A stretch of DNA of 52,869 nt. It comes from Dictyobacter arantiisoli. GTDB taxonomy: Bacteria; Chloroflexota; Ktedonobacteria; Ktedonobacterales; Ktedonobacteraceae. Below are positions 1,318 through 20,554 of the stretch, one piece after another. The stretch spans positions 1 through 52,869 of the forward strand of contig NZ_BIXY01000049.1 of NCBI RefSeq assembly GCF_008326305.1. Reading direction: 5' to 3'. Numbering within the stretch: the stretch's first letter is position 1; every line of letters starts with the position of its first letter. The notes beneath the pieces are model-generated. The model ran no database searches, was not told the origin of the DNA, and worked only from the letters and a program-made list of their open reading frames with translations. The position numbers and the translations under genes were made by a program.

Positions 1318-2313
1318 ATGCGTGTTGTCTCTCTCGGAAGTGGTAGTAGTGGTAATGCTTATCTCGTGGAGGCTGGTCCTCAAGGCAGGACCAGGCTTTT
1401 GCTGGATGCGGGTTTAAGCGCACGCATGTTAACAACACGTCTGGCCTCGGTTGGAGTATCGCCATTGCAGCTACAGGGTATTCTGGTTACGCATGAGCAT
1501 AGTGATCATGTACGAGGCATTCCTGTGCTGGTGAAAAATCATTCTTTGCCTGTCATTGCCAATACCCACACATTGAAAGCTATTCAAGAGGGCATTGTCA
1601 CTGGCGTCTGGAGCACTGACTCAGGTAAACTGGTGCCAGCCTATCAAAAGTCTGATACTGACACACAACCTGAAGTCCTGCTGACAAAAAATGGAGCAGA
1701 TACAGCTAATGCTGCGTTATTGGAGAGCCAACCCGGGCAGATAGGCGTAGCGGTAGCGGATGGTGCGTTTTCAACATCGCCAGCTTCTCAATATTTATTT
1801 TCGGCATTGGTCTTTCCCAGCGGTACCCGGCGCATTGTTGGTGATATCACAATCACCTCATTTGCTATCTCGCATGATGCCACTGCCCCTTGTGGTTATC
1901 TATTAGAGGCGGGTGGATGTCGTGTCTGTTTGGTGACGGATAGCGGGGAAGTTACCCTGGCAATGCTTGAACAGATGCAACATGCTGATCTCCTGATTCT
2001 GGAATCTAACCATGACCGGGAGCGCTTGCGGCGTGGCCCCTATCCCTGGATGCTCAAGCGCCGTATTCTCAGTCCTACAGGCCATCTTGCCAACGATCAG
2101 GCAGCCGAAGCTGTGCTGCGTATCTGGCGCGAAGGCGGGATGCGCTGGCTCTGGCTTGCCCATTTAAGCCGTACCAATAATACACCTCAGTTGGCACTGG
2201 AAAATATGCGTCTCTCCTTGTTAGCCGCTCATGTCAATCTCTCCTATATCCAGATTGTCGCCTTACCGCCCACCATGGGGGCCATCTGGGATTCCACACG
2301 CTTATGGCTTTAG
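1318..2313 (+). CDS. MBL-fold metallohydrolase, WalJ/YycJ-like, with a central insertion
   Basis: A 331-residue metallo-beta-lactamase-fold protein. SLGSGSSGN at the N-terminus, DAGLS, the metal motif THEHSDHVRG, FAISHDATAP, VTDSGEVT, ILESNHD and the late GHLAND follow the WalJ/YycJ order. That family acts as a cytoplasmic nuclease/phosphodiesterase linked to cell-wall and DNA-repair control. It is longer than the usual ~260 residues because of a roughly 70-residue insertion (about residues 105-175) before the ISHDA motif. ATG 1318 is preferred over TTG 1312 because GAGG at 1304-1307 is well spaced for the former and only 4 bases from the latter. Its stop codon overlaps the stop of the convergent cyclase gene. 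Confidence 0.85.
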   Translation: MRVVSLGSGSSGNAYLVEAGPQGRTRLLLDAGLSARMLTTRLASVGVSPLQLQGILVTHEHSDHVRGIPVLVKNHSLPVIANTHTLKAIQEGIVTGVWSTDSGKLVPAYQKSDTDTQPEVLLTKNGADTANAALLESQPGQIGVAVADGAFSTSPASQYLFSALVFPSGTRRIVGDITITSFAISHDATAPCGYLLEAGGCRVCLVTDSGEVTLAMLEQMQHADLLILESNHDRERLRRGPYPWMLKRRILSPTGHLANDQAAEAVLRIWREGGMRWLWLAHLSRTNNTPQLALENMRLSLLAAHVNLSYIQIVALPPTMGAIWDSTRLWL

Positions 2314-5300
2314 CCAATGATGTTTTTTTTGTCCAACGCATTCACAGCGGCCAGTTCTTTGCGTACACGTTGTGCTGATGGGGTTGCAGAGAGCGACTCA
2401 TAAAAGCCCAGCGCTTGTTCCAGATAGTAGCATGTCAGATCCAGGTCGCTTTTCCGCAGCTCTCGGGCCTCATCTGTATCCCGTGTATCCGCACGGCATT
2501 TGTAGAATAGACCCAGATAATGCAGTGTATGAGCCCGTTCCCAGGGCAGATCAAGTTTTTCACAATAGTGATTGGAACGTCGTAAATCAGCTTCTGCCTG
2601 TTCCCATTGCTGTTTTTGCAGGGCCAGGCGTCCGCGTGCGCGCAACGCTACCGCGAGACTCTTGTTCGAACCAGCATTTTCACAAAGCGTGACGGCACGA
2701 TCAAACAAATCCTCTTGCTGTTCCGTTTCCTCATTTATTATCAGCAACTCGACTAGCGTCACCAGAATTGCCGGATCGGGAAATGGTTCGCTTTTCTGTA
2801 CTTTATAGCGATAATCCTCCAGAGCTCGCGGCCAATCCTCCTGGGCTAAATGGATGGCATGTATTTTCGTTCCCATACATGGGAGATTGTCATTCGATAT
2901 CCGTTCGCTATTCTGATCAGTCAGCCGTTTATATTGCCGCGTATATTTATCGCCTTCCTCTTGTTGACCACGATGATAGGCGATAGTTGCCAGAGTTTCC
3001 AGTGCCCAGAGCTGGCGTTTTTCATCCTGTTGATACTTCTCAATGAATTGCAGGATCTCGTGTGCCACCTGCTGTGCCTCATCCCAGCGGTTCCAGCGAT
3101 ACCATGTATTCATGCGTCCAACCATACTCGACAAGACCATGGGAGGGCTCTCCATCGCGAGTGCATTACTCCAGGCCTTCCCATAATAGGTTAAAGCGGT
3201 TGCATACTCGGCAATGGTCTGATAAGTGCCTCCTAATGTTATATAGAGATCATACAGTTCTTCTCGATTCGTAATCAGATGTTCCAGTTGCAGGCGACGG
3301 TTCAGGATCTCGCGTGCCTTGCGATAGCGGCGATAGTATTGCGCATAGATAAAGCCCATGGCGTCCAACGTGAGGGAGAGTATGATGGGATCTCCAAGCT
3401 CTTCGGCCATACGTAGTGCCTGCTCACCTTTCTGCAATCCTTGTTCTGCCAGCATGTTTTTTTGCTCGACCGGCGCTTCATCTAATTGAGTAATAAACCA
3501 GAAAACCAGATAGGTAAGAAAGGACACATGTTCACGGCTCGCTGGCATATCTTCAAGCAAGGCCAGGCCAGCATTGACGTAGGACTGTATCTCTTGTGGA
3601 TCTGGTGGACTGTCAAAGAGCGCCAATGAGCGCGTTGCTAATAATGAAAGCTGATTATAGATCTTGAGCAAATAGAACTTATCTGTTTGTGGTGTTGCTG
3701 GCAAGACGAGTTGGAGGGCACGGCGGAATTGAAGCCAGGCGCTATCAAGGTTCCCGCGCTGTGCGTGAGCTTCCCCAATTTTATAGAGCATCTGGCTGCG
3801 TGTATAGGCATCAGCCTGACTCTCATCGAGAAACTCCATGGCATCAGTATAGGCCTGTAAGGCTCTTAGCGCGTAATAGCAGTCCATTGCCTGATCCCCG
3901 GTAATCGTTAAGTAATTGATAGCTTGCGCCCGCAAATCGGCGCGTGTGAGCCGTATGGATTGCGTTGTCGGATATTTCTGTTTAATGATTTCAAGTGTAT
4001 CAATGGTTGCATTAGGCGACCAGGTGGTGAGTGCGCGCTGAAAATGATGGGCAATCAACTCGACAAAGCTTGCTTGCTTGGTGGTGGTATGATCTTCGAG
4101 CCAGAGCGCCATCTGAGTATGTTCGCGTGACCGCCGTTGACGTGGGATATTGTTATAGACGACATCGCGTGTCAGGATATGCTTGAAGATAAAAGTGCGA
4201 TCTGACGTGATAGGGCTGACCATTTTGGTCGTAATCTCGGTGATAAAATCATGGTGCATCAGCGATACCAGCGCATTAATAATGGTATCCGCATTCGTGC
4301 TGGCTCCCAACTCTAACAGGGCTGAAAGCCAGAATGTGCGGCCGATAATAGCGCAGTGCTGCAATATCAATTTATCAGTAGGATTCAGCAGATCCACGCG
4401 TGCCGCCAGTACGCCCTGAATGGTGTCGGGAACGTAGGGTAATGGAAGCAAATAGGGAGAATTGAGCGGCTCTTCCGAATGCAACTCATCGTTTACCAAT
4501 TGGAGCGGCTGGCTAAATTCTCCTGGATAAGTATATTTGGGATAATTGACCATCCAACAATCTTGTCCCCGCTCGGAGCTTTCTCCACGTATCAGAATTT
4601 TCTGATCGATAAACATTCGCACAATCTCTTCCACAAAGAAGGGGTTACCCTCTGAACGGGCCATAATCGTATAGCGTAAGTTTTCTGGCAATTCATTGGT
4701 ATTGAGCAAGGCATCGATAAGATCATTACTCTCTTCACTGGTCAGAGCATCCAGCTCAATCATGGTAAAGTTTCTCTGACCGCTGCCCCAATCGCGGCGG
4801 TGTTCCAGGAAATCCGGTCGGGCGGGACAGAGAATGAGGATGGGGACCGCAGTCACGCGATCTGTAAGATATTCAAAGAGATCCAGTAAAGCTTCGTCCG
4901 CCCATTGCAGGTCATCAATGATAATGATCAGCGGTTGGCGTTCTGCCAGAGCCTCTAAGAGTATGCGCCAGGCCCGCAAGAGCGCGATCGGGGCACAATT
5001 TTGTTTTGATTGTGTTCCCTTTGTAGGTGTCTGTGTCGCTACCTTACCAGGTCTTTCGTAGCCTGACTCATCTTCCCGGCGCTTCTTCCCAATCAAGCCC
5101 TGTCCGATGTGGCGTAGCAACGTCTCCGCGATCTCCTCGGGTACTTCAGAGCGTTGCGCCGCTGTAAATGTGGTACGCAAGAAATCGATGAAGCGCAACT
5201 GAATACTCTCATCGGTATCATCCTCCTGGACATGGAGCATCGAGCGTAGAATTTCGATTAAGGGCCAGTAGGTAATACCTTCGCCATAGGGAGGGCAACG

Positions 5301-6422
5301 TCCTTTAAGGATCAGCGGCGGTACCAGCTCTCCAATGGGTGAGGTACTTTTGACTAATTCTTGTTCACGTGTGATGAATTCACGTACCAGGCGTGTTTTA
5401 CCAATACCGGGCGTACCCAGAATGGTGATGAGATGTGGATGTCGTTCAGTCTGGACACGTGCGTAACTGGCATGGAGTAAGGTCAATTCGAGACCCCGTC
5501 CCACCAGTCTGCTAGCACGGCTGATCAACCCACGCGGATGCTGCTCAATAATGCCGGTGGGTTCACATAGCTTGAGTACCACATAGGCTGTGAGTGGCTC
5601 GGTTTTTCCCTTGACGTGTAAGGGGGCCACGGCTTGAAAATCAAACACTGCGCGGCTGGATAGATAGGTCCGCTCTCCCACCAGGATCGTATCGGGCATT
5701 GCCGTTTGCTGCAAGCGAGCAGCCATATTCACCGCATCGCCCGTGATCAGGAAATCCTGATAGCGTGTCGCAGTGATCCCCGGAGTCGCTACCTCACCCG
5801 TATTGATGCCGATGCGCATCTGGAGTCGAGTCGCCTCAGGATCACGCACCAGGCGCTGTTCATTGAAGAGTGTCAGGGCGGCCTGCATATCCAGCGCGGC
5901 CCGTATCGCGCGGCCAGGATCATCTTCATGCGTGATGGGTGAACCGAACACTGCCATGACCGCATCGCCAATATATTTTTCCACGGTCCCATCGTGTTTA
6001 CGGATCTGTGCGGTCATCAAATTAAAATAACCTGCCAGGATGGCACGCATATCCTCTGGATCGAGTCGATCCGCCAATGGGGTCGAGCCCGTGATATCAG
6101 CAAACATAACCGTCACCACCCGTCGCTCCTCTTCTGCTGTATGTACAACTGTGGGTGGCACTGCCGCTGGCGCTTCAACTATTACAGGTTGTCTGGCTGA
6201 TAATGTATGGAGTGCTTCACTCTCAACGACTGGCTCATAAGCTACCGTAGATGCTTTATCTGCATACTGTTTGGGTAGCAATGAATTTCCGCATTCGATG
6301 CAAAACTTTGCTCCGGTGGGATTAATGGTACCGCAATGAGGACAGGCAGTCAGATTCTTTCCACATTCAAGGCAAAATTTCGCATTCGGTGGGTTTACTG
6401 TCTGGCAATTCAGGCAACGCAT
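2310..6422 (-). CDS. zinc-ribbon / class III adenylate cyclase / AAA ATPase / TPR signalling protein
   Basis: A 1,370-residue multidomain protein. Residues 1-50 hold two zinc ribbons (CLNC...CLEC and CPHC...CIEC). A class III nucleotide cyclase domain follows, with FADITGST and GDAVMAVFGSP supplying the two metal Asp residues, and GDAVNMAARLQ. Next is an AAA/STAND-type ATPase with Walker A GTPGIGKT and Walker B IIIIDDLQWAD, then a long helical TPR-rich C-terminal half. Such proteins are thought to couple cyclic nucleotide synthesis to an unknown signal through the ATPase switch. The start is placed at the first zinc ribbon (MRCLNC); an upstream in-frame extension of 41 residues to 6545 is low-complexity and unlikely. 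The upstream RBS is weak. It is monocistronic and convergent with the WalJ-like gene. Confidence 0.88.
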   Translation of the reverse strand: MRCLNCQTVNPPNAKFCLECGKNLTACPHCGTINPTGAKFCIECGNSLLPKQYADKASTVAYEPVVESEALHTLSARQPVIVEAPAAVPPTVVHTAEEERRVVTVMFADITGSTPLADRLDPEDMRAILAGYFNLMTAQIRKHDGTVEKYIGDAVMAVFGSPITHEDDPGRAIRAALDMQAALTLFNEQRLVRDPEATRLQMRIGINTGEVATPGITATRYQDFLITGDAVNMAARLQQTAMPDTILVGERTYLSSRAVFDFQAVAPLHVKGKTEPLTAYVVLKLCEPTGIIEQHPRGLISRASRLVGRGLELTLLHASYARVQTERHPHLITILGTPGIGKTRLVREFITREQELVKSTSPIGELVPPLILKGRCPPYGEGITYWPLIEILRSMLHVQEDDTDESIQLRFIDFLRTTFTAAQRSEVPEEIAETLLRHIGQGLIGKKRREDESGYERPGKVATQTPTKGTQSKQNCAPIALLRAWRILLEALAERQPLIIIIDDLQWADEALLDLFEYLTDRVTAVPILILCPARPDFLEHRRDWGSGQRNFTMIELDALTSEESNDLIDALLNTNELPENLRYTIMARSEGNPFFVEEIVRMFIDQKILIRGESSERGQDCWMVNYPKYTYPGEFSQPLQLVNDELHSEEPLNSPYLLPLPYVPDTIQGVLAARVDLLNPTDKLILQHCAIIGRTFWLSALLELGASTNADTIINALVSLMHHDFITEITTKMVSPITSDRTFIFKHILTRDVVYNNIPRQRRSREHTQMALWLEDHTTTKQASFVELIAHHFQRALTTWSPNATIDTLEIIKQKYPTTQSIRLTRADLRAQAINYLTITGDQAMDCYYALRALQAYTDAMEFLDESQADAYTRSQMLYKIGEAHAQRGNLDSAWLQFRRALQLVLPATPQTDKFYLLKIYNQLSLLATRSLALFDSPPDPQEIQSYVNAGLALLEDMPASREHVSFLTYLVFWFITQLDEAPVEQKNMLAEQGLQKGEQALRMAEELGDPIILSLTLDAMGFIYAQYYRRYRKAREILNRRLQLEHLITNREELYDLYITLGGTYQTIAEYATALTYYGKAWSNALAMESPPMVLSSMVGRMNTWYRWNRWDEAQQVAHEILQFIEKYQQDEKRQLWALETLATIAYHRGQQEEGDKYTRQYKRLTDQNSERISNDNLPCMGTKIHAIHLAQEDWPRALEDYRYKVQKSEPFPDPAILVTLVELLIINEETEQQEDLFDRAVTLCENAGSNKSLAVALRARGRLALQKQQWEQAEADLRRSNHYCEKLDLPWERAHTLHYLGLFYKCRADTRDTDEARELRKSDLDLTCYYLEQALGFYESLSATPSAQRVRKELAAVNALDKKNIIG

Positions 6423-6737
6423 ACAAATCCATTTTTCTACTGTATGGGATGATGAAATTCTTCTCTGCAATCGTTCTTTATTGTACAACACACCTATGAT
6501 ATTGAATAGCTTTAGAAGAAGAGCTACTCTGTAACGAGATAGCATAACCGTACATGAGAGCCTGGCTATCCTGCCGGTGGGCTGTATTGGATGGATTCAC
6601 GGAGTTGTTTTGTTATGATAGAGATATAATATGGAACAGTTTCTGAGGTTTCGTTTATAAGAGTCGCGGAATACGCAGTTTTTACTTGACGATTTTGCCT
6701 ATATTCCTTACTATAAATAGCGAGAAGGGAGTAATGT
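6423..6737. other. divergent intergenic region, cyclase / DUF402
   Basis: A 315-bp gap between two divergent genes. The plus-strand promoter at 6686-6714 and an RBS (GAAGGGA, 6724-6730) are the only signals called. The minus-strand half has AT-rich stretches but no convincing promoter hexamers or operator. Confidence 0.5.
6686..6714 (+). promoter_or_regulatory. candidate sigma70-type promoter for the DUF402 gene
   Basis: TTGACG at 6686-6691 and TACTAT at 6709-6714 are separated by 17 bp, with an AGAAGGGA RBS a little downstream. The -10 is imperfect (TATAAA lies 3 bases further on). Confidence 0.45.
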
Positions 6738-8696: not shown

Positions 8697-9191
8697 ATGA
8701 AGTTCGATGATTTGTTGTTTAGCCGACGTACCAGGCAAAATCATGCACTAGAGCATGCTACATTTACAATCATGGCGACTATGGATCCATCTTTAAGTGT
8801 CAGCGCCCGTTCAAATAACGATGGTTTTATTATCTTTGGGGATGTCGATCTGGGCCTGTTACGGCGAGCCCTGGATGAGGCTTTACGGCGTCTCCTGGCG
8901 GGTGAAGCTGAACTGGCGATTCACCCCAATTGTGGAACGAATCTGGCCGTGGGTGTCTCAATGGTAACGATTGGGACATTACTGGGTATGGCTTCCAGCA
9001 ATAATCGTACGCGTGTGGCATCGACTGCGGCTTCTTCGGTCGCAGGCTGGATGGCGGCCCGTCCTGTTGGGGAATATGTTCAGAAGCACTTTACGACCTT
9101 GCCCGACGTTACTGGTGTTCGCGTCACCGATATCACTCGTCGTAAGCTCTTTGGGTTTACCTTTATCGAAGTTCGTACTGTTCAGGAGTAA
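8697..9191 (+). CDS. DUF6391-like conserved protein
   Basis: A 164-residue protein carrying TRQNHALEHAT near the N-terminus, GDVDLGLLRRALDEALRRL, then IHPNCGTN and a hydrophobic, Gly/Ala/Ser-rich segment (about residues 85-120) that could be one or two membrane helices. The HALEHAT and HPNCGTN blocks fit the family I remember as DUF6391, known from cyanobacteria and Chloroflexi with no assigned function. AAGGAGA lies 8 bases before ATG 8697. It ends 2 bases before yggT, so translation is probably coupled. Confidence 0.7.
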   Translation: MKFDDLLFSRRTRQNHALEHATFTIMATMDPSLSVSARSNNDGFIIFGDVDLGLLRRALDEALRRLLAGEAELAIHPNCGTNLAVGVSMVTIGTLLGMASSNNRTRVASTAASSVAGWMAARPVGEYVQKHFTTLPDVTGVRVTDITRRKLFGFTFIEVRTVQE

Positions 9192-9740: not shown

Positions 9741-9806
9741 ACAGAACGAGAACGAGAACGAGGGATGCCAGATGACATCCCTCGTTCTCGTTCTCGTTCT
9801 GTTTTC
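9741..9806. terminator. 27-bp perfect hairpin between convergent genes
   Basis: Arms 9741-9767 and 9776-9802 are exact reverse complements (27 bp, 8-base loop) and are followed by TTTT on the plus strand. The arms contain three AACGAG units. It starts at the base after the yggU stop and ends 14 bp before the convergent kinase stop, so it can terminate from the left; on the minus strand it has no T-run. Confidence 0.8.
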
Positions 9807-9816
9807 CTGTCCTGTC

Positions 9817-12699
9817 CTAATGTGCCAGGAATGTTCCACTTCCAAGGTTATTTTCCATGTGAATACGCTGACCTTTGTCAAAAGATAAGATTACAACTGC
9901 TTTATTGACAGGATTTCCATCGGCACCGAAAGTAATCTGTCCACTCACGCCTTGCAGGTTTTTGATCTGAGTTAACGCTGCTTGAAGATCAGTAGCGGTC
10001 AGAGAGGTTCCTCCTCTGATTGCTTGCTTACTTGCTGTGAGCAGGGCAACCATGGCATCGTAGGAAAGTATTGCATTGTTAGTTGGCCGTACATAGCCAT
10101 ACACTGTCGTTGTATTTGCCCCACTAAAGTCCGCTATGTAATTCTGGAAGAAGGCTGGCTTCTGCTTGCTATGACCAAGTACATCCCATTCATCAGGATA
10201 GGCAAAGGCGGTGAAATGTAGACGATAGAGATTAGGACGCGCTTGCTGGGTGTAGCCTCCAAGTTCGTAGAGAGCATCACCTCCTAAAATTTGCGTGTTT
10301 GCCAGTTGTGGCTGATTGGGTAGCCCTGTCAAGAGCGTATCGACATCGTTGGCGTAGCCCGCGAAATAGATCAGTCCCGGATCAGCGGTCAGTTTCTGCA
10401 GACCCATAAGGATAGACTGTTTGTTATTGCGCTGGTAGGGGATGACTTGCGTAATTTGACCACCAATAGTGCTGGCCGTAAAAGAGGACTGGAAGTCATT
10501 GCCCAGGCTCTGACTATAGGAGTCTGAGTCATCCATAAAGATGACGGCTTTTTTCGCGCGCAGTTGATTTTCGGCGTAGGTCGCTGCCACGCTGGCCTCG
10601 GTATTATTAGATGGGGCAACGCGGAAGAAATATGTCGAGCTATTCGTAAGGGCATCACTAGAAGCGGTAGCCGAGACCATGGGAATTTTTGCTCTTGTCA
10701 GGATTGTGGATGCGTTCTCTGCGTGTGCGCTGAATGACCAGCCCATGACTCCCACAATACTATGATCTTTAGCTGCTGCTTGCACAATTTGATTGGCAAC
10801 GGTGGTAGCGTTGGCCTCATTGCTGCCGGTATTAGCGATAATCAGACGGATTTGAAGTTGTCCCAGGGTATGCTGACTATTCCATTCGTGCTGAGCAACA
10901 TAGGCTCCCTGGAGATTATCTGCTCCGGTTCCCGTATTGTTTCCGCTGAGGACGGTGCCTATGACATAGGTGAGATAGGGGCTATTGGAGTTAAGGACGC
11001 GTAGATCTTCTTGATAAATATGTGCCTCAGCATCACCAGAATCCCCGTTGCTTGATTTGCCATTCACGGCGTCCGTCCAGTAGGTTGCTGCCTGACTATC
11101 ATTGTTGTGTTGCATTGCCGCAACGGCTTCTTTTTTATATTGTGCGTTTCTGCGCGAGGTATCAAAGACGAAGTGACCATCACTTAAGCCGATGGGCTCG
11201 CCATTGATCATCGTGACGCTGATAGAATTACTACTGGTTGAGTTGTTGTTGGCGGATGGATTTTTCTGAGTTATCTGGCTGGTATTGCCAATGGGATGGG
11301 CTCCGCCTCCAGGTGGGATGGTTGGTCCTGCATGTAAGCTGAAAAAGAGGAATGCGATGATGACGATGACAATAATCAGGAGCAGCAGGCTCCATAGCAT
11401 ATAGTTGACTTCTTTTTTCTGTTGGCGTGGCGGAAACTGCTGGATTTGCTGTTGATTCCCCCAGCGTCCTCCTGGTCGTTGAGCCTGGTTATTGATGGGA
11501 TAGGGATTGGCAGGAGGTGCAGGTGTGCTTCTGACCGGGCCATAGCCTTGATTATAGGCAGGTTTGGTGGGCGGTGTCGGGGGGGTGGGAGGGGCTGGCA
11601 CCGTCCGCAATGGTGCTGAATTGAGGAGATAACTGCTGTTCTCGCTTGTGGTATGGAAACGATTTTGCAATAGTGCGTCGATCGCACCTTTCATTTCCGC
11701 TGCGTTTTGATAGCGTTTGGTGACATCAATGGTCAATGCGCGTTCAAGAATGCGTTCAAGCTCAGGAGAAACCTGAGGATTGATACTGCGAGCGGGTGGA
11801 TAATTAAACGGTGGATAATTACGCGGATCGCGATTAGTGACCAGATGGTGGAGCGTGGCGGCCAGCGCATAGAGATCCGAACGCGCATCTGCGTTACCCT
11901 GATATTGTTCGGGCGGCGCGTAGCCTGGGGTGCCCAGCGCGGTCGTTTGTTTGCGTTTGGCGTGTTTTGCCTCATCCGCGCGTGCAATGCCGAAGTCTAC
12001 CAGGCGGGCGCGTTTATCGCGCGCGCTAATAATAATGTTCGCTGGTTTAATATCACGATGTACAATAGGAGGCTTTTTCGTTCCCAGATATTCGAGAATA
12101 TCCAATACCTGTGAAATATAGGTAAGTGCTTCAAGTTCAGGCATCGATTTTTGGGTGCGCTCCATATGATCTTCCAGATTTTCGCCTGGAGCATATTCTT
12201 GCACCATATAGTAGCGCGACGCTTCTTGAAAACTATCGGTCACCGTTGGAATCAGAGGATGATCCAGATCTGCCAGCGTATCTACCTCACGCTCGAAATT
12301 ATGGACATCCTCCTGACGTTGTTGCGCATCGCTCTCATCTGAGATTAACTCTTTAATCACGACGCGTTTGTTGGAGACGCGAGTATCACGTGCTAATACC
12401 GCTGCGCCCATACCACCCTGACCCAAAACTTTTTCGACCACATAGCGGCCATTTTGTAACTGTGCATTGGGAGTCAGGGTACTGGAAGTACCTCTACCGC
12501 CTCCATTAGTTGTTGTACCAATTCCACCACTACTACTACTATTCCCCACCTGGCCCGGGCTGGTTACAGGATTATTTGTCGTTGGACTCACTTGCCCAAC
12601 AACGGTTTGCTCATTCACAGATGAGTCCAGGTAACCACCACAATTGGCACAAAAGGTTTCACCGGCCGGATTTACCGTGCCGCAAAAAGGACATTTCAT
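9817..12699 (-). CDS. membrane Ser/Thr kinase fused to an extracellular LivK-type ligand-binding domain (copy 2)
   Basis: A 960-residue protein. Residues 1-23 are a zinc ribbon (CPFC...CANC). A PknB-like kinase spans about 85-350: GQGGMGAAV glycine loop, VVIKEL lysine, HRDIKPAN catalytic loop near 214, DFGIA, APPEQYQGNADARSDLYALA. A Pro-rich linker (about 360-430) leads to one TM helix (433-455). The outside part has a TPR-like stretch and then a Peripla_BP_6/LivK-like periplasmic binding fold (about 600-960), with TVLSGNNTG, GAYVAQHEWN, GVMGWSFSAH, FFRVAPSNNTEA, VIFMDDSDSYS. The active-site residues look intact, so this is probably a one-protein sensor that phosphorylates targets upon binding a small ligand. 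The start is placed at the zinc ribbon, with AGG 8 bases upstream. It follows its paralog by 78 bp. Confidence 0.88.
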   Translation of the reverse strand: MKCPFCGTVNPAGETFCANCGGYLDSSVNEQTVVGQVSPTTNNPVTSPGQVGNSSSSGGIGTTTNGGGRGTSSTLTPNAQLQNGRYVVEKVLGQGGMGAAVLARDTRVSNKRVVIKELISDESDAQQRQEDVHNFEREVDTLADLDHPLIPTVTDSFQEASRYYMVQEYAPGENLEDHMERTQKSMPELEALTYISQVLDILEYLGTKKPPIVHRDIKPANIIISARDKRARLVDFGIARADEAKHAKRKQTTALGTPGYAPPEQYQGNADARSDLYALAATLHHLVTNRDPRNYPPFNYPPARSINPQVSPELERILERALTIDVTKRYQNAAEMKGAIDALLQNRFHTTSENSSYLLNSAPLRTVPAPPTPPTPPTKPAYNQGYGPVRSTPAPPANPYPINNQAQRPGGRWGNQQQIQQFPPRQQKKEVNYMLWSLLLLIIVIVIIAFLFFSLHAGPTIPPGGGAHPIGNTSQITQKNPSANNNSTSSNSISVTMINGEPIGLSDGHFVFDTSRRNAQYKKEAVAAMQHNNDSQAATYWTDAVNGKSSNGDSGDAEAHIYQEDLRVLNSNSPYLTYVIGTVLSGNNTGTGADNLQGAYVAQHEWNSQHTLGQLQIRLIIANTGSNEANATTVANQIVQAAAKDHSIVGVMGWSFSAHAENASTILTRAKIPMVSATASSDALTNSSTYFFRVAPSNNTEASVAATYAENQLRAKKAVIFMDDSDSYSQSLGNDFQSSFTASTIGGQITQVIPYQRNNKQSILMGLQKLTADPGLIYFAGYANDVDTLLTGLPNQPQLANTQILGGDALYELGGYTQQARPNLYRLHFTAFAYPDEWDVLGHSKQKPAFFQNYIADFSGANTTTVYGYVRPTNNAILSYDAMVALLTASKQAIRGGTSLTATDLQAALTQIKNLQGVSGQITFGADGNPVNKAVVILSFDKGQRIHMENNLGSGTFLAH

Positions 12700-12777
12700 A
12701 GTTGTGCCTGTTATTCCAATCTCGTAGTTATCTTGTGTGTAGTGATTATGTATGCTGGCATTATCGCCACACAACCC

Positions 12778-15573
12778 CTACTTTAAAAAGCGTCCCAGAA
12801 GTGTAGGTTCCATATGGATACGTCCCATTGGATCGACATAGAGCACCACAATCGCTTTATCAGTGGGATCTCCATTCGCGCCAAAAGCAATTTGCCCACT
12901 TACTCCCTGGATGGCATTGGTACCGTTGAGCGTATGTAAAGCCTGACGCTCGTCCTCAACGGTTGGATGTTGCTTTCCTGTGTTCAATGCATTATTGTAC
13001 GCAGTTAGCAAGGCAATGGTTGCATCATAGGAGAGAATAACATCATTATCCGCACGCGTAAAGCCATATGAACCTCCAGTATGTGGCCCATAAGCAGTAA
13101 ATGCTGCGGTATATTCCATGAAAAAATCTGGCTTTTGCGCGCTATGGTTTAAGACATCCCATTCATCGGGATAGGCAAAGGCAGTGAAGCGTAAGCGGTT
13201 GAATTTGGCACGGGCACTGCTTTGATAGCCACCTAATTCATAGAGCGCATCTCCCCCCATGACGGGTAAGTTACCGGCTGGGAGATTAGAGAGCAGTGTG
13301 CTTACATCACTGGCATAGCCAGAGAAGTAGATCAAGTCGATATTTTGTCTTAGTGTTTGCTGGACAGCGCTGGAAATGGTATCTGCTTTTCCGATGGTAT
13401 ATTTTTCCTCAACAACCTGATTTTTATCCTGATTCACAAATTGCTGGCGAAAATCCTGTGCCAGACTCTGGCTATAACTATCCTGATCGTCATAGAAAAG
13501 CGCGACCTTTTTCGCATGCAGGTTTTGCTCAGCGTATTTTGCTCCCTGTATTCCCTGTATCTGGTTGGAGGGAACGATCCTGAAAAAGTAAGGAGAGGCA
13601 TTGGTAAGCATATCACTGGAGGATGTCTGGGATACCAATGGAATGTGTGCGTTGCTCAGCGTACTGATAGCGGCCTGTGTTCGTCCACTAAAAGGCCAGC
13701 CCATTACGCCGATTACCGTGGGATCGGATTGCTGCAATTGGACAATTTGTTGCACCACCCTGGGGACATTATAATTGAGGCTGGGATCATGTGGGCTGCC
13801 TGTGTTGGCGATCAATAAACGCACCAGAATCCCACCATGGAGTTTCGATCCATCGTTATATTCTTTTTGTGCCACATAGGCACCTTGAAGATTATCACGT
13901 CCCACCTGTATTTGATCACCGCTGAGCATTGTCGCGATTACCAGTGTCACATATGGCGAGCCAGAAGTGAGCACATGAATATTCTCTTGATAGATCAGTG
14001 CTTCCGCATCGTTCTCATTCTTGCCAAGTGCCTGATTGAGGAGCGAGATCGTCGCATTATAATTGCCATTTGCCTGTTTAAAGGCCTGCGCCGCCTGTAT
14101 CTTGAGTGCACCATCTTCAAGCGTGGTATCGATGGCGGTTGTGCCATCGCTAATGCCGATAGGTTCACCATTGACCATCGTAACGCTCAGCGTGGATGTT
14201 GTCTTTTTCCCCAGGTTAGCGTATATCAACAATGAGCCCCCCGCCAATAGTAAGACCAGCAATACTGTGAGGACAATAATCAGTCCTGTATGGCGGCGTT
14301 TGCGTGCTGGTTGCCACTGTGGTTGGGGCTGTTGAGATGGTTGGGGCTGTTGACCTGCCTGAATCTGGGGATAGACAGGATATGTGGGCGATGATGTATT
14401 CCCAGATGCTACCGGTGCTACTGATGGTAACAGCGTCGGAGGAACAGGTGTTGTTTGCGCCCAGGAGCCTTGGCCCAGTTGTTGTGGTGTCTGTAATGTG
14501 GTTGGAATTGTTCCCTGCTGAGTCACGGCCTGCGCTGGATCCGGTGAGGATACGGTCGAGTTTGTGATTTTTGGTATCTGTCCAGAATTTCCCAGCGTAT
14601 AGCTATCGATATTGCCAGAGACACCAAAACGCTGACGTAGAATGGTATCGATCTCAAACTTCATGGCGGTGGCGCTCTGGTAGCGTTGTTTCATATCGAC
14701 CTGTAATGTTTTCGCCAATACCTGTTCAATTTCAGGTGAGAGGGCGGGGTTGAGCGTGCGCACTAAAGGATATTGGAAGGGCGTTTCACCTCGTGGATCG
14801 CGATTGGTCAGAATATGATGCAATGTGGCGGCCAATGCATAGAGATCTGAGCGCGCATCCGCGTTGCCCTGATATTGTTCAGGTGGTGCGTAGCCTGGCG
14901 TACCCAGTGCTGAGGTTTGTTTGTGTTGCGCATTACGCACCTCATCAGTACGAGCAATGCCAAAATCGACCAGATGGGCCCGGCGATCTTTGGCCCCAAT
15001 AATAACGTTGGCCGGTTTGATATCGCGATGCATGATTGGTGGTACCTGCTGGGCCAGATATTCCAGAATATCGAGAATCTCAGACGCGCAGATCAATGCT
15101 TCTCGCTCGCTGAAAGGCTTTTGGGTCCGTTCCAGACGCTCCTCAAGGTTCTCTCCCTCGATATATTCCTGCACCATGAAGTAGCGTGTACCTTCCTGAA
15201 AGTGGTCGGTCACATTGGGTACCAGAGGATGATCAATATGGGCCAGCGTTGCGACTTCACGCTTAAAATTGCGCACATCTTCCAGGCGGCGCTGTTGATC
15301 AACATTGTCTGAGATCAGTTCCTTGATCACAACAAGCTTACCATCTAAGCGACTATCCGTGGCAAGCAATGCTGTCCCCATGCCTCCCTGACCGAGAATC
15401 TTTTTGATAGCATAGCGATCCCCTTGTAAGTGAGTAGCTGTACTCAGTGAATTTGGTAGCGTGATCCCGCTATTTGAAGGCGTAGCTGTCGAAGCAGCAC
15501 TCACATTATTACCGCAATTCCCACAAAAGCGGACATTATTGCGGAGTTCTGCTCCACAGTAAGGACATTTCAT
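12778..15573 (-). CDS. membrane Ser/Thr kinase fused to an extracellular LivK-type ligand-binding domain (copy 1)
   Basis: A 931-residue paralog of the next gene with the same order: zinc ribbon (residues 3-20), kinase 53-315 (GQGGMGTAL, K84 in VVIKEL, HRDIKPAN 182-189, DFG 203-205, APPEQY), Gln/Pro linker 330-427, TM helix about 429-453, then an extracellular region ending in a branched-chain-amino-acid-type binding fold (TMLSGDQIQ, GAYVAQKEYND, GVMGWPFSGR, FFRIVPSNQ, ALFYDDQDSYS). AGGCAGG lies 8 bases before the ATG. The two genes are a tandem duplication, diverged most in the linkers. The ligand and the phosphorylation targets are unknown. No accessory ABC transporter genes accompany them. 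Confidence 0.88.
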   Translation of the reverse strand: MKCPYCGAELRNNVRFCGNCGNNVSAASTATPSNSGITLPNSLSTATHLQGDRYAIKKILGQGGMGTALLATDSRLDGKLVVIKELISDNVDQQRRLEDVRNFKREVATLAHIDHPLVPNVTDHFQEGTRYFMVQEYIEGENLEERLERTQKPFSEREALICASEILDILEYLAQQVPPIMHRDIKPANVIIGAKDRRAHLVDFGIARTDEVRNAQHKQTSALGTPGYAPPEQYQGNADARSDLYALAATLHHILTNRDPRGETPFQYPLVRTLNPALSPEIEQVLAKTLQVDMKQRYQSATAMKFEIDTILRQRFGVSGNIDSYTLGNSGQIPKITNSTVSSPDPAQAVTQQGTIPTTLQTPQQLGQGSWAQTTPVPPTLLPSVAPVASGNTSSPTYPVYPQIQAGQQPQPSQQPQPQWQPARKRRHTGLIIVLTVLLVLLLAGGSLLIYANLGKKTTSTLSVTMVNGEPIGISDGTTAIDTTLEDGALKIQAAQAFKQANGNYNATISLLNQALGKNENDAEALIYQENIHVLTSGSPYVTLVIATMLSGDQIQVGRDNLQGAYVAQKEYNDGSKLHGGILVRLLIANTGSPHDPSLNYNVPRVVQQIVQLQQSDPTVIGVMGWPFSGRTQAAISTLSNAHIPLVSQTSSSDMLTNASPYFFRIVPSNQIQGIQGAKYAEQNLHAKKVALFYDDQDSYSQSLAQDFRQQFVNQDKNQVVEEKYTIGKADTISSAVQQTLRQNIDLIYFSGYASDVSTLLSNLPAGNLPVMGGDALYELGGYQSSARAKFNRLRFTAFAYPDEWDVLNHSAQKPDFFMEYTAAFTAYGPHTGGSYGFTRADNDVILSYDATIALLTAYNNALNTGKQHPTVEDERQALHTLNGTNAIQGVSGQIAFGANGDPTDKAIVVLYVDPMGRIHMEPTLLGRFLK

Positions 15574-15799: not shown

Positions 15800-15845
15800 A
15801 AAAAGGACCCTGTGGGAAGAATATTCCTGACAGGGTCCTTTTTTA
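15800..15845 (-). terminator. rho-independent terminator of the sulfurtransferase gene
   Basis: AAGGACCCTGT (15804-15814) pairs with ACAGGGTCCTT (15831-15841), loop 16 bases. Read on the minus strand the stem is followed by TTTTTT. It lies 24 bp after the minus-strand stop at 15869. Between here and the kinase start at 15573 I see only AT-rich sequence without called signals. Confidence 0.85.
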
Positions 15846-17011: not shown

Positions 17012-17315
17012 ATGCCTGCTACACGTGTAACCGCCGCAACGGAAGATTCGGAAGAAACCTTTAAGCTCTCGCGCGTCTTTGCAGCCTTCTCTAGTTTGCC
17101 ACGTATCCTGCAACTGGTCTGGTCTGCCAATGCTCCGCTAACGGTTGCCATGGCGGTTATCAGCATCTTGCGTGGCCTGACGCCTGTGGTCTCGGTAACT
17201 ATTTCTCAACTGGTAATTGATAGCGTTGTACGTGGTATACTCATCCATTCAATTGCACCCATCTGGCTGCCGGTTATTCTCCAACTGGTAGTGAGTCTGG
17301 TAGATCGTTGTTTGA
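17012..17315 (+). pseudogene. ABC exporter, 5' fragment, interrupted by IS110-family element
   Basis: The first 101 codons of an ABCB/MsbA-type exporter (fused membrane and ATPase domains). It has a cytosolic start, then RILQLVWSANAPL and a hydrophobic TM1-like segment ending in LVVSLVDRCL. GGGGAGTG lies 6 bases before the ATG. The frame runs on into IS sequence and would end as a 166-residue aberrant product at 17512. Joining 17012-17315 to 19017-20554 gives 1,842 bases, a 613-codon frame plus stop, reading VDRCLNTISQSL across the joint, so the gene was intact before insertion. Confidence 0.9.
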
Positions 17316-17346
17316 CGAATTCTCCTGAAAATAGCCGCTCCACAAA

Positions 17347-17381
17347 AGCAGGCAGCAGAGATCATGCCGTCTCTGCCTGCT
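17347..17381 (-). terminator. terminator of the IS110 transposase
   Basis: On the minus strand AGCAGGCAGAGA pairs with TCTCTGCTGCCTGCT (3-base bulge) and is followed by TTTTG. It overlaps the last codons and stop (17362) of the transposase gene. Confidence 0.6.
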
Positions 17382-18750
17382 GTAATTGGACCTGGTACCC
17401 TAATTGCTCAAGACGGCGAAGCGCTCGACGTTTGGTGGTCTCTCGCTCTTTTTCGCTGGCATACTGCTCTCCCAATTCCCGAAAAGGCTCATCCTCTTTG
17501 AGCACATGGTAAATGGTCAGCAGAATCCGATGAGCTACTGCCACGATGGCCTTTTTTCGGCCCATGCGTTGACACAAGCGTCGATAATACGCTCCCAGGA
17601 ACGTTCCTTTACTGCTGGCTGCTCCTTGTGCGGCTTCAATGAGGGCCGTGCGCAACCATCGATTTCCTTTGGTCGTTTTGCCGCTTAACCGTTTGCCTGC
17701 ACTCACCTTGTTGCCTGGACAGAGTCCGACCCAGGATGCTAATTGCTCCTGGGTCGGAAAACGATCCATCTGGATGCCGATCTCGGCGACCACGACCTCG
17801 GCGGTGCGCAGACTGATCCCCGTAATCGCATCCAGGCGCTCAATGGCTCGTCGAAGATCCTGTCGATGCTCACCCAGACGCCGCGTTTGGCCTTCTTCTT
17901 CCTCGACGATTTCCTCTGACTGAGCATCTTGTAAAGCCTCTTTGGCGGCTTGCTTTGAGGAGGGTGAAGGATCGGGGTCTTCCGGTCCGTTGCCCAGGCC
18001 TAACTGCTCGGCAATTTGCTGATCAAACGCCTCAATCTGTTGGCTTAAAAAGTCCAGGTGAGCCAGATGCTGCGAGAGCACAAAGCGATGATGCGCTCGC
18101 AGCGTTCCTTGAACAGCCTGCGCCAATTGCAGCTGCTTGCTCCGCAGTTTCCCACGTGCCATCCCTGCCAGGGTTTCCAGGTCCTGCTCTCCTTGCAGCA
18201 TCGCATGCAAGATCTGCCGAGCGGTTTTGCCGGTGATATCAGTGACCACCGAAGAGAGTTTGATATTGGCGTCTTCAAGCACCTTCTGGATCCGGTTCAC
18301 GATGCGAGCTCGTTCCTCAATCAGGGTTTTGCGCGTGCGCGTTAATTCCCGTAATTCCCGTTGGGGACGAGGAGGGATAAAGCTGGCGGTGAGTAAGCCA
18401 TGTTGAAGTAAACTGGCAATCCATTCGGCATCCTTCACATCCGTTTTGCGCCCCGGAACCGCTTTGATATGCTGCGCGTTGACCAGCAGCACCTCCATCT
18501 CCCCTTCCAGCACATTGTAGATCGGTTTCCAGAACACCCCTGTGCTCTCCATAGCCACATGAGTGCATCTCGCTCCTTTGAGCCAATCCAACAACTCCAG
18601 TAATCCTGTCGTCATCGTACTAAATGTTCGCGTCTCTTTTTTGAGATGCCCATTGGCTCCTCGAAGAAGCAAACATGCCACGATCATCTTTTTGTGAATG
18701 TCCAATCCACAACAGCGTTCAAAGACCACACTGATGAGATCTTTCTCCAT
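17362..18750 (-). CDS. IS110-family transposase (DEDD recombinase)
   Basis: A 462-residue transposase. The N-terminal RuvC-like DEDD domain has CGLDIHKK, AMESTGVFWKP and GRKTDVKDAEWIA. The C-terminal Transposase_20 domain has LDAITGISLRTAEVVVAEIG, ASWVGLCPGNKVSAGK and SGKTTKGNRWLR, which holds the catalytic serine region. Between them lies a ~45-residue acidic, low-complexity linker (PEDPDPSPSS, SEEIVEEEEGQ) that is longer than in short relatives. It is intact and therefore probably active. GGAGGAAAGC precedes the ATG. Confidence 0.95.
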   Translation of the reverse strand: MEKDLISVVFERCCGLDIHKKMIVACLLLRGANGHLKKETRTFSTMTTGLLELLDWLKGARCTHVAMESTGVFWKPIYNVLEGEMEVLLVNAQHIKAVPGRKTDVKDAEWIASLLQHGLLTASFIPPRPQRELRELTRTRKTLIEERARIVNRIQKVLEDANIKLSSVVTDITGKTARQILHAMLQGEQDLETLAGMARGKLRSKQLQLAQAVQGTLRAHHRFVLSQHLAHLDFLSQQIEAFDQQIAEQLGLGNGPEDPDPSPSSKQAAKEALQDAQSEEIVEEEEGQTRRLGEHRQDLRRAIERLDAITGISLRTAEVVVAEIGIQMDRFPTQEQLASWVGLCPGNKVSAGKRLSGKTTKGNRWLRTALIEAAQGAASSKGTFLGAYYRRLCQRMGRKKAIVAVAHRILLTIYHVLKEDEPFRELGEQYASEKERETTKRRALRRLEQLGYQVQLQQAETA

Positions 18751-19011
18751 GCTTTCCTCCTGGCAAAGGGGCTGCTTTCTTCACGCTCATGCAACCAGTT
18801 TCGCCAAGAGGATACCGTCCCATAAAGAAATTCTCCTTCGTGCTTCCCTCGTCTGGGAGCCACAGTTCTGGGTGCCTACAGGTATCCCGATCATATTTGA
18901 ACCCAGGTTTGTTCCACTAGATAAAATCTCGATCTGTGAATCTTGGCGCTGGTTCACCTCCTATTTTACCTCCTTTTCATGGTTCCGGGTGCTCCGCAGG
19001 AGCATGGACTA
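18751..19011 (-). ncRNA. candidate bridge RNA region of the IS110 element
   Basis: This 260-bp stretch upstream of the transposase has no convincing ORF of its own. On the minus strand it holds, in order, a TGCTCC/GGAGCA hairpin near the element end, a TTCAC/GTGGA stem around 18908-18945 with inner AGAT/ATCT, and a GGATACC/GGTATCC stem enclosing about 64 bases (roughly 18812-18888). Two successive loop-bearing stems match the known plan of target-binding and donor-binding loops. The RNA itself is inferred. An AGATCG in the first loop (complement of 18930-18935) also occurs in the target at 17302-17307. Confidence 0.55.
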
Positions 19012-19016
19012 TTTGA

Positions 19017-20554
19017 ATACTATTTCACAGTCCTTATTACAGGATCAGGTTGCCAATCATATTCAACTCAGCATTCTGCACAAGGCCAATACATTAGATC
19101 TCTCCTTCTTTGAGAACACCGAATTTTATGACAAATTACGTCATGCCCGGGAAGAGACGAATTATAAGCCAGTTATTCTCGTCTCAGAGATTTTCGATAC
19201 AGCACGTACACTAATCACGCTGGTCTCGATGTTAATTTTGTTACTTCAACTGGCCTGGTGGCTTATGCTGGTTGCTTTTATTATTCCGATACCATCTTTT
19301 ATTGCCAGTAGTCGCTATGGCTGGCGGCGCTACCGCAGGATGCGTGCTGAAGCGCCGGAACGGCGGAAGATGTGGTATCTGACTCATGTGTTGACGGTGG
19401 ATGATTATAATAAAGAAGTTAAACTCTTCAATCTGGGTGATTTTTTTATCGCACGCTATGTCTCGTTGATGGAGACCTTCTACGATGAGAATAAGAAGCT
19501 CATCATTCCCCGCAATCTGAGTAATTTTGCCTGGTCAGCCATTACGGTGATTGCCAACTCTTCTATCTATCTCTATGTAGCGCTCCAGGCCGTGCTGGGT
19601 CGTATTAAGTTGGGCGGGCTGGTCAAGTATACACAGGCATCCATTCAGGCCGGTACGAGCTTCCAAAGTGTCCTGGATGGCATTTCAACCATCTACGAAA
19701 ATACCTTGTATGTCAATACACTCTTTGAGTTTATGGAATACCAACCCATAATTGTTTCCCCACCGCAACCTGCTACATTGACCTTCCCGGTAGATGTACA
19801 GGGATTGGATATTGAGTTTCGCGATGTCAGTTTTACTTATCCAGGCAAGACGGAAGCTGCCCTGAGTCATATCAATTTTGTCGTGAAGGCAGGCGAATCC
19901 GTCGCGCTGGTAGGACGCAATGGGGCGGGCAAGACAACATTAGTCAAGCTACTGACGCGCCTGTATGATCCCGATGAAGGAGAAATTCTCATTGGAGGAC
20001 ATTCTATTCGTGATTATAATCTCGAGGATTTGCGTCAGCATGTGGGCGTAATTTTTCAGGATTTTGTACGCTATCATCTTACTGCTAGCGAGAATATTGG
20101 AATCGGGCGACTGGCGGAAATAGAAAACCGAGACTTCATCGAACAGTCTGCTCAAAAGAGCGGCGCGGATGCCGTGATCGAAAAGTTGGACAATGGATAT
20201 GATACGATGCTGGGACGCTGGTTTAAAGAAGGTGCTCAGTTGAGTGGAGGTGAGTGGCAGAAGGTCGCATTGGCTCGGGCATTTATGCGCGATGCTCGTA
20301 TCCTGATTCTGGATGAGCCAACCAGCGCGCTTGATCCTCAATCTGAATACGACGTCTTCACCCGATTTCGGCAGCTCACAACTGGCAAAACCGCCATTTT
20401 CATCAGCCATCGTTTCAGCACCGTACGCCTGGCGGATCGGATTATTGTCATTGAGCATGGCCGGATGCTTGAAATAGGTTCCCATCAAGAGCTTATTGCC
20501 CTGGATGGTCGTTATGCCGAACTCTTCAACCTCCAGGCCGAAGCCTATCGATAG
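19017..20554 (+). pseudogene. ABC exporter, 3' fragment (TM domain remainder and ATPase)
   Basis: The remaining 511 codons of the split exporter. TM helices lie around 19190-19300 and 19530-19590. The nucleotide-binding domain is complete: Walker A GRNGAGKTTL, Q-loop VGVIFQDF, signature LSGGEWQKVALARA, Walker B ILILDEPTSALDP, H-loop ISHRFST. On its own it lacks the first TM helix and a native start. An in-frame extension reaches back to 18698 inside the IS but starts in transposase antisense sequence. It is followed by a 20-bp hairpin. Confidence 0.88.

Follow-up and report, generated by a model that had tools for sequence, protein, structure and literature searches.

Two described systems come closest to the locus analysed here. 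Venus kinase receptors of invertebrates combine a flytrap domain, a transmembrane (TM) helix and a cytosolic kinase, and they are reported to be amino-acid-inducible (PMC3703292). For mycobacteria and corynebacteria, two further sources present GlnH-GlnX-PknG as three separate proteins, one of which, the outside solute-binding protein (SBP) GlnH of the polar-amino-acid family, has been put forward as an amino-acid-responsive regulator of a Ser/Thr kinase (PMC6069109, PMC8546545). In mechanism, the products of the tandem genes A and B of Dictyobacter arantiisoli are nearest to these two systems as those texts portray them, and are members of neither. Like Venus kinase receptors (PMC3703292), they have an extracellular flytrap, a TM helix and a cytosolic kinase. 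Whereas the receptors, as described there, are animal tyrosine kinases with an N-terminal flytrap, A and B are bacterial, PknB-like Ser/Thr kinases with the domain order reversed, the kinase being N-terminal; their zinc ribbon, neck and tandem arrangement also set them apart. The likeness is an analogy and not whole-protein homology. In contrast to the separate sensor, membrane protein and soluble kinase of GlnH-GlnX-PknG, each of the two proteins holds sensor, TM helix and kinase in one chain.

PASTA kinases (PknB/StkP/PrkC) carry an N-terminal kinase inside the cell, followed by a long linker, one TM helix and a sensor outside; A and B share this layout, with a LivK-type flytrap instead of PASTA domains. 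The branched-chain amino acid SBPs LivK and LivJ (3td9, 4gnr) have the same fold and amino-acid-type pocket as A and B, in which, by contrast, the flytrap is fused via a neck and a TM helix to a kinase, and no permease is encoded on the contig. Certain Streptomyces proteins are named by NCBI 'bifunctional serine/threonine-protein kinase/ABC transporter substrate-binding protein', which implies kinase and SBP in one chain, as in A and B; the kinase-SBP fusion is apparently not new to the annotation of other phyla. Our literature search, with preprints and most subscription papers outside its coverage, returned no title or abstract describing a kinase-flytrap fusion. A specialist would be surprised that the A/B pair is conserved, that some B genes lack a sensor, and that one sensor goes with several outputs.

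The window, i.e. the whole analysed stretch of 52,869 nucleotides (contig NZ_BIXY01000049.1, here C49), contains two consecutive minus-strand ORFs that occupy positions 9817-15573. Their features are:

9748-9795, unstranded: strong inverted repeat with a 20-pair stem and T-rich tails both ways (stem scan)
9817-12699, minus strand: gene B, same domain order as gene A, about 960 residues from the ATG at 12699
9829-10980, minus strand: two-lobed solute-binding domain of B (PF13458, 71 bits; Z 43.0 to 3td9)
10987-11217, minus strand: neck of B (AF2 model)
11335-11391, minus strand: TM helix of B with RQQKK in front (hydropathy script and sequence)
11647-12444, minus strand: kinase domain of B (Pfam; VVIKE, HRDIKPAN, DFG)
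12637-12696, minus strand: zinc ribbon of B, CPFC...CANC (CxxC...CxxC complete; Zn_Ribbon_1 21.7 bits, under the cut-off of 25)
12778-15573, minus strand: gene A, 931 residues; zinc ribbon, Ser/Thr kinase, linker, TM helix, neck, solute-binding domain
12793-13953, minus strand: two-lobed type-I solute-binding (flytrap) domain of A (PF13458, 73 bits; Z 39.0 to 3td9)
13960-14184, minus strand: neck of A with GISDG motif, made of two strands and three helices; one hairpin resembles TPR (AF2 model)
14224-14280, minus strand: TM helix of A with RKRR in front (hydropathy script and sequence)
14662-15414, minus strand: kinase domain of A (PF00069, residues 54-304; VVIKE, HRDIKPAN, DFG, GTPGYAPPEQ)
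15505-15570, minus strand: zinc ribbon of A, CPYC...CGNC (Zn_Ribbon_1 27.1 bits, cut-off 25)
15803-15840, minus strand: 11-bp stem with a 16-nt loop, followed by a T run (read by eye)

In the ORF list, gene B begins with a TTG (12774); the ATG at 12699 (MKCPFCG), 78 nt past the stop of gene A, is likelier. The two proteins are 51% identical overall. The repeat at 9748-9795 is likely a terminator common to gene B and a convergent gene cluster, and the stem at 15803-15840, which is absent from the list of a scanner with a loop limit of 8 nt, is likely the terminator of the upstream rhodanese gene. With these two stems, A-B looks like a transcription unit of its own. A DUF6391 gene (8697-9191) adjoins the pair and recurs in 14 of 20 loci, so the site is conserved; the flanking genes common to the loci are, we assume, YggS, YggT and YggU. 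Elsewhere in the neighbourhood, an IS110-family transposase gene (17362-18750, minus strand) splits an ABC transporter gene (17012-20554), the two pieces of which align with residues 3-108 and 109-620 of the uninterrupted gene in locus L072, and near the kinase pair, at 2310-6545, lies a large signalling fusion, a 1411-residue protein that combines zinc ribbons, AAA_16 and TPR with a guanylate/adenylate cyclase domain.

Both products are Hanks-type Ser/Thr kinases: Pkinase (PF00069) scored 122 bits for A and 131 bits for B (cut-off: 31.7), and the catalytic Lys, HRD and DFG are all present, the HRD within HRDIKPAN, which we take to be a Ser/Thr-type motif. A Pro/Gln-rich linker connects the kinase to the single strong hydrophobic segment found by the hydropathy script between kinase and outside domain (residues 432-450 in A and 462-480 in B), and the basic residues ahead of this helix are consistent with the kinase being inside. 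The NCBIfam PASTA kinase model NF033483 (Stk1/PknB) reached 192 bits with A and 190 bits with B against a cut-off of 450, and the Pfam scan detected no PASTA domain in either protein, in agreement with the earlier proposal that the outside domain is of the transporter-type solute-binding kind and not PASTA.

The outside part of both proteins matched Peripla_BP_6 (PF13458) with 73 bits (A) and 71 bits (B) at a cut-off of 31.7, and the Pfam family ANF_receptor with 59 and 67 bits, respectively. AlphaFold modelled it with a pLDDT of 92.2 and a pTM of 0.92 for A (52 rows) and with 89.2 and 0.90 for B (25 rows). In VIA-align, the A model superimposed on LivK (3td9) with Z 39.0, an rmsd of 2.8 and 343 aligned residues, and the B model with Z 43.0, an rmsd of 2.0 and 345 aligned residues; LivJ (4gnr) was matched with Z 37.8 and 40.3, respectively. 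The PF13458 scores over the cut-off and the two-lobed models place A and B in the type-I solute-binding (LivK) fold. The two-lobed fold, whose absence had been named beforehand as counting against the sequence-only reading, is thus predicted with high confidence in both proteins, and Pfam, hydropathy and the models agree that each protein joins zinc ribbon, kinase, TM helix and LivK-type fold, as that reading had claimed. A profile of 52 relatives matched the amino-acid SBPs 4gnr, 4nqr, 4obb and 3td9 as well as mGluR-type flytraps. Missing from the earlier description was the neck, which sits between TM helix and flytrap and consists of two strands and three helices; its part of the profile matched designed TPR proteins, weakly per TPR unit. 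The neck of gene A has a GISDG motif that most of the A relatives share.

To characterize the pair in relatives, we read 21 arrays: that of the window, plus one locus from each of 20 further genomes of its family, out of 24 searched (G007, G019, G021 and G022 were left out). Two adjacent complete genes were present in seven arrays (the window, L072, L074, L078, L085, L087, L090) and three complete genes in two (L086, L091); four arrays had two neighbours, one of them cut by a contig end (L076, L079, L082, L084). In 2/21 arrays (L073, L080), a complete A is accompanied by a B with kinase and TM helix and without sensor. In 3/21 arrays (L075:9602-12372, L081:6729-9592, L089:5941-8723), the reading frame of gene A is interrupted, and one gene only was found in 2/21 (L077, L083) and in L088, on a contig of 3.5 kb; with these cases, the pair is not obligatory everywhere. 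The frame breaks fall between kinase and TM helix or inside the sensor, and may be sequencing errors or genuine decay. Where measured (10 loci), the gap between A and B was 20-226 nt, and the A/B order is the same across the family of Ktedonobacteria.

A quick tree of 36 kinase proteins (SH-aLRT support, no bootstrap), whose A and B rows were the complete genes plus three sensor-less or cut B genes, with frame-broken and contig-cut A genes left out, recovered three clades: the 17 B rows (SH-aLRT 98), 11 of the 12 A rows (98) and the six Thermogemmatispora rows (95). A recent local duplication was rejected, because A and B group apart from each other across genera; judged from the sequences, the duplication is old. 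Among congeners, dN was about 0.2 and dS was saturated or, in most comparisons, uncomputable. Lys, HRD and DFG are intact in all 29 A and B rows. Thermogemmatispora carries three kinase-flytrap genes in a row (L086:6191-15243, L091:6433-15484). Four of its six kinases are degraded, two per array having lost HRD and/or DFG residues; the activity of every copy is therefore not required there. The sensor-less B genes of L073 and L080 have no sensor remnant downstream; as the two do not group together in the tree, the sensor was likely lost twice.

We mapped the pocket by sequence alignment to 4gnr, taking the amino acid contacts of LivJ to be Ser79, Thr102, Tyr150, Tyr202 and Glu226. At these positions, the A rows have S, S/T, Y, Y (one H) and, in 13/13, D; the B rows have S, S, Y, Y and, in 11/11, D (groups hand-picked from the 52 rows of A3, with row L079:4638 in no group). 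The order-level pseudokinase rows kept neither D (0/6) nor Tyr150 (0/6), in a group (pseudo_f1) that includes L097, an HTH-NB-ARC protein and no pseudokinase; the conservation in A and B is hence not automatic. It supports, as far as residue identities can indicate, an alpha-amino-acid-like ligand for both proteins, alike for A and B. Tyr18 of LivJ, presumably a side-chain contact, is by alignment not kept in A and B, so ligand specificity cannot be read from the pocket.

We consider it the best reading, with a probability of roughly 60%, that A and B are flytrap receptor Ser/Thr kinases that sense an amino-acid-like ligand and work as an A/B complex. The sequence-only reading had explained the pair by two related ligands or by hetero-dimerisation. 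The latter is favoured by the comparative data, namely the same gene order, the two clades, the conserved adjacency and the sensor-less B kept with intact kinase and TM helix in 2/21 arrays; the former is weakened, since the near-identical pocket residues (13 A and 11 B rows agree at the LivJ-aligned positions, bar neighbouring ones) argue against two different ligands. Two separate homodimeric receptors for different but related ligands, adjacent for co-regulation only, would fit the divergence of A and B to 51% identity and the residue ahead of the T-A-S-S loop, where 10 of 13 A rows have Q and the B rows vary between A, S, G, Q and P; this arrangement is nevertheless unlikely, as the core pocket positions do not differ between A and B and a B that has lost its sensor while keeping kinase and TM helix is left unexplained.

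Less probable still is a flytrap that no longer binds a ligand and has become a docking domain or an envelope anchor. Degenerate pockets do exist in order-level relatives, and the neck looks TPR-like, i.e. like a protein-binding fold, but the pocket residues hardly vary among 24 A and B rows from across the family. We regard it as very improbable that the outside domain still feeds an ABC importer whose transport flux is reported by the kinase: although fold and pocket match importer SBPs, the solute-binding domain lies C-terminal to a TM kinase, and the LivH/LivM-type permease (BPD_transp_2), with which a LivK importer is encoded, had no match on the window contig C49. All 13 matches in the genome are on other contigs, and the permease genes on C82 and C104 are accompanied by SBPs of their own. 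A relic of a LivK importer was likewise rejected, as there is no permease on the contig.

For the flytrap receptor kinases of our preferred reading, fold and pocket suggest that a small molecule outside the cell (probably an amino acid or a close analogue) would be captured. By comparison with how receptor kinases work, the two lobes would close, this shift would be passed on through neck and TM helix, the kinase domains of A and B would be brought together in the hetero-complex, and trans-phosphorylation of the activation loops would be followed by phosphorylation of cytosolic targets. An outside nutrient signal is thus probably turned straight into protein phosphorylation.

The outside module is not limited to this pair. 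A contig scan with A4 yielded 41 loci, all in Ktedonobacteria by their titles, and the module was found at 1e-10 or better in 40 of 41 genomes (the own genome and 40 relatives), weaker matches resembling ordinary SBPs. A search of the phylum (251 genomes) gave a match at 1e-20 in 125; among the matches listed, those containing the neck, above roughly 180 bits, belonged to families f1, f2 and f4 and one f27 genome (G088), and the others were weaker and mostly SBP-sized. G088, one of five phylum places inspected, has a single kinase-TM-neck-flytrap gene with intact HRD and DFG; no kinase was found in the other four. In other genomes of the phylum, two proteins (L175:1575-4178, L176:1605-4172) have two tandem solute-binding domains each. 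A scan of viral contigs found no relative, and tblastn against plasmids no record with 80% of the gene A protein in one place; plasmid searches with the outside module returned mostly ordinary SBPs, together with proteins of Streptantibioticus, Embleya, Streptomyces fungicidicus and cyanobacteria, a similar pre-flytrap segment being visible in those of Streptantibioticus and Planktothrix. The kinase HMM detected no kinase among the ORFs of L112 or L179, and the L180 protein had no Pfam match.

Within the own genome, the module is also joined to a zinc ribbon, a degenerate kinase (23 bits, without HRD or DFG) and a TM helix on C72 (L040), occurs as membrane-anchored modules without kinase on C11 and C78, and follows an N-terminal H-x3-C-x2-C region and TM segments on C73 (L038). 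The C73 protein is anti-sigma-like (zf-HC2 17.1 bits, under the cut-off of 22.2), and its gene overlaps an ECF-type sigma gene (L038:8359-11101; Sigma70_r2 and Sigma70_r4_2, 43 bits each). ECF-type sigma neighbours were identified by Pfam in L092, L095 and L102, and by eye in L093 and L094; the gene pair is conserved in other Dictyobacter loci. In further proteins, the outside flytrap module follows HTH_3, NB-ARC and a TM helix (L097:3128-6256) or AAA_16, TPR and a TM helix (L096:3798-7664); these are possibly outside-sensing STAND proteins. Seen as architecture, a module on several outputs supports a portable sensor. We put forward, tentatively, that neck and amino-acid-type flytrap form a portable Ktedonobacteria sensor with four or more outputs, counting Ser/Thr kinases and degenerate kinases, STAND-type ATPases and an anti-sigma-like protein encoded next to an ECF sigma factor. 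In the kinase version, A and B would form a heteromer, with A as the sensing partner and B reducible to a kinase, and this would be a bacterial parallel to Venus kinase receptors.

Which stimuli activate bacterial Ser/Thr kinases has been called an outstanding question (PMC6069109). Here, sensor and kinase are in one chain and the pocket hints at the ligand class, so that a screen of amino acids and their analogues with the soluble domain could name the stimulus of a kinase. In the genome, 74 kinase matches exceed the Pfam cut-off, and a named ligand would open one entry into this network. One sensor on several outputs, in turn, allows swapping tests and chimeric receptors.
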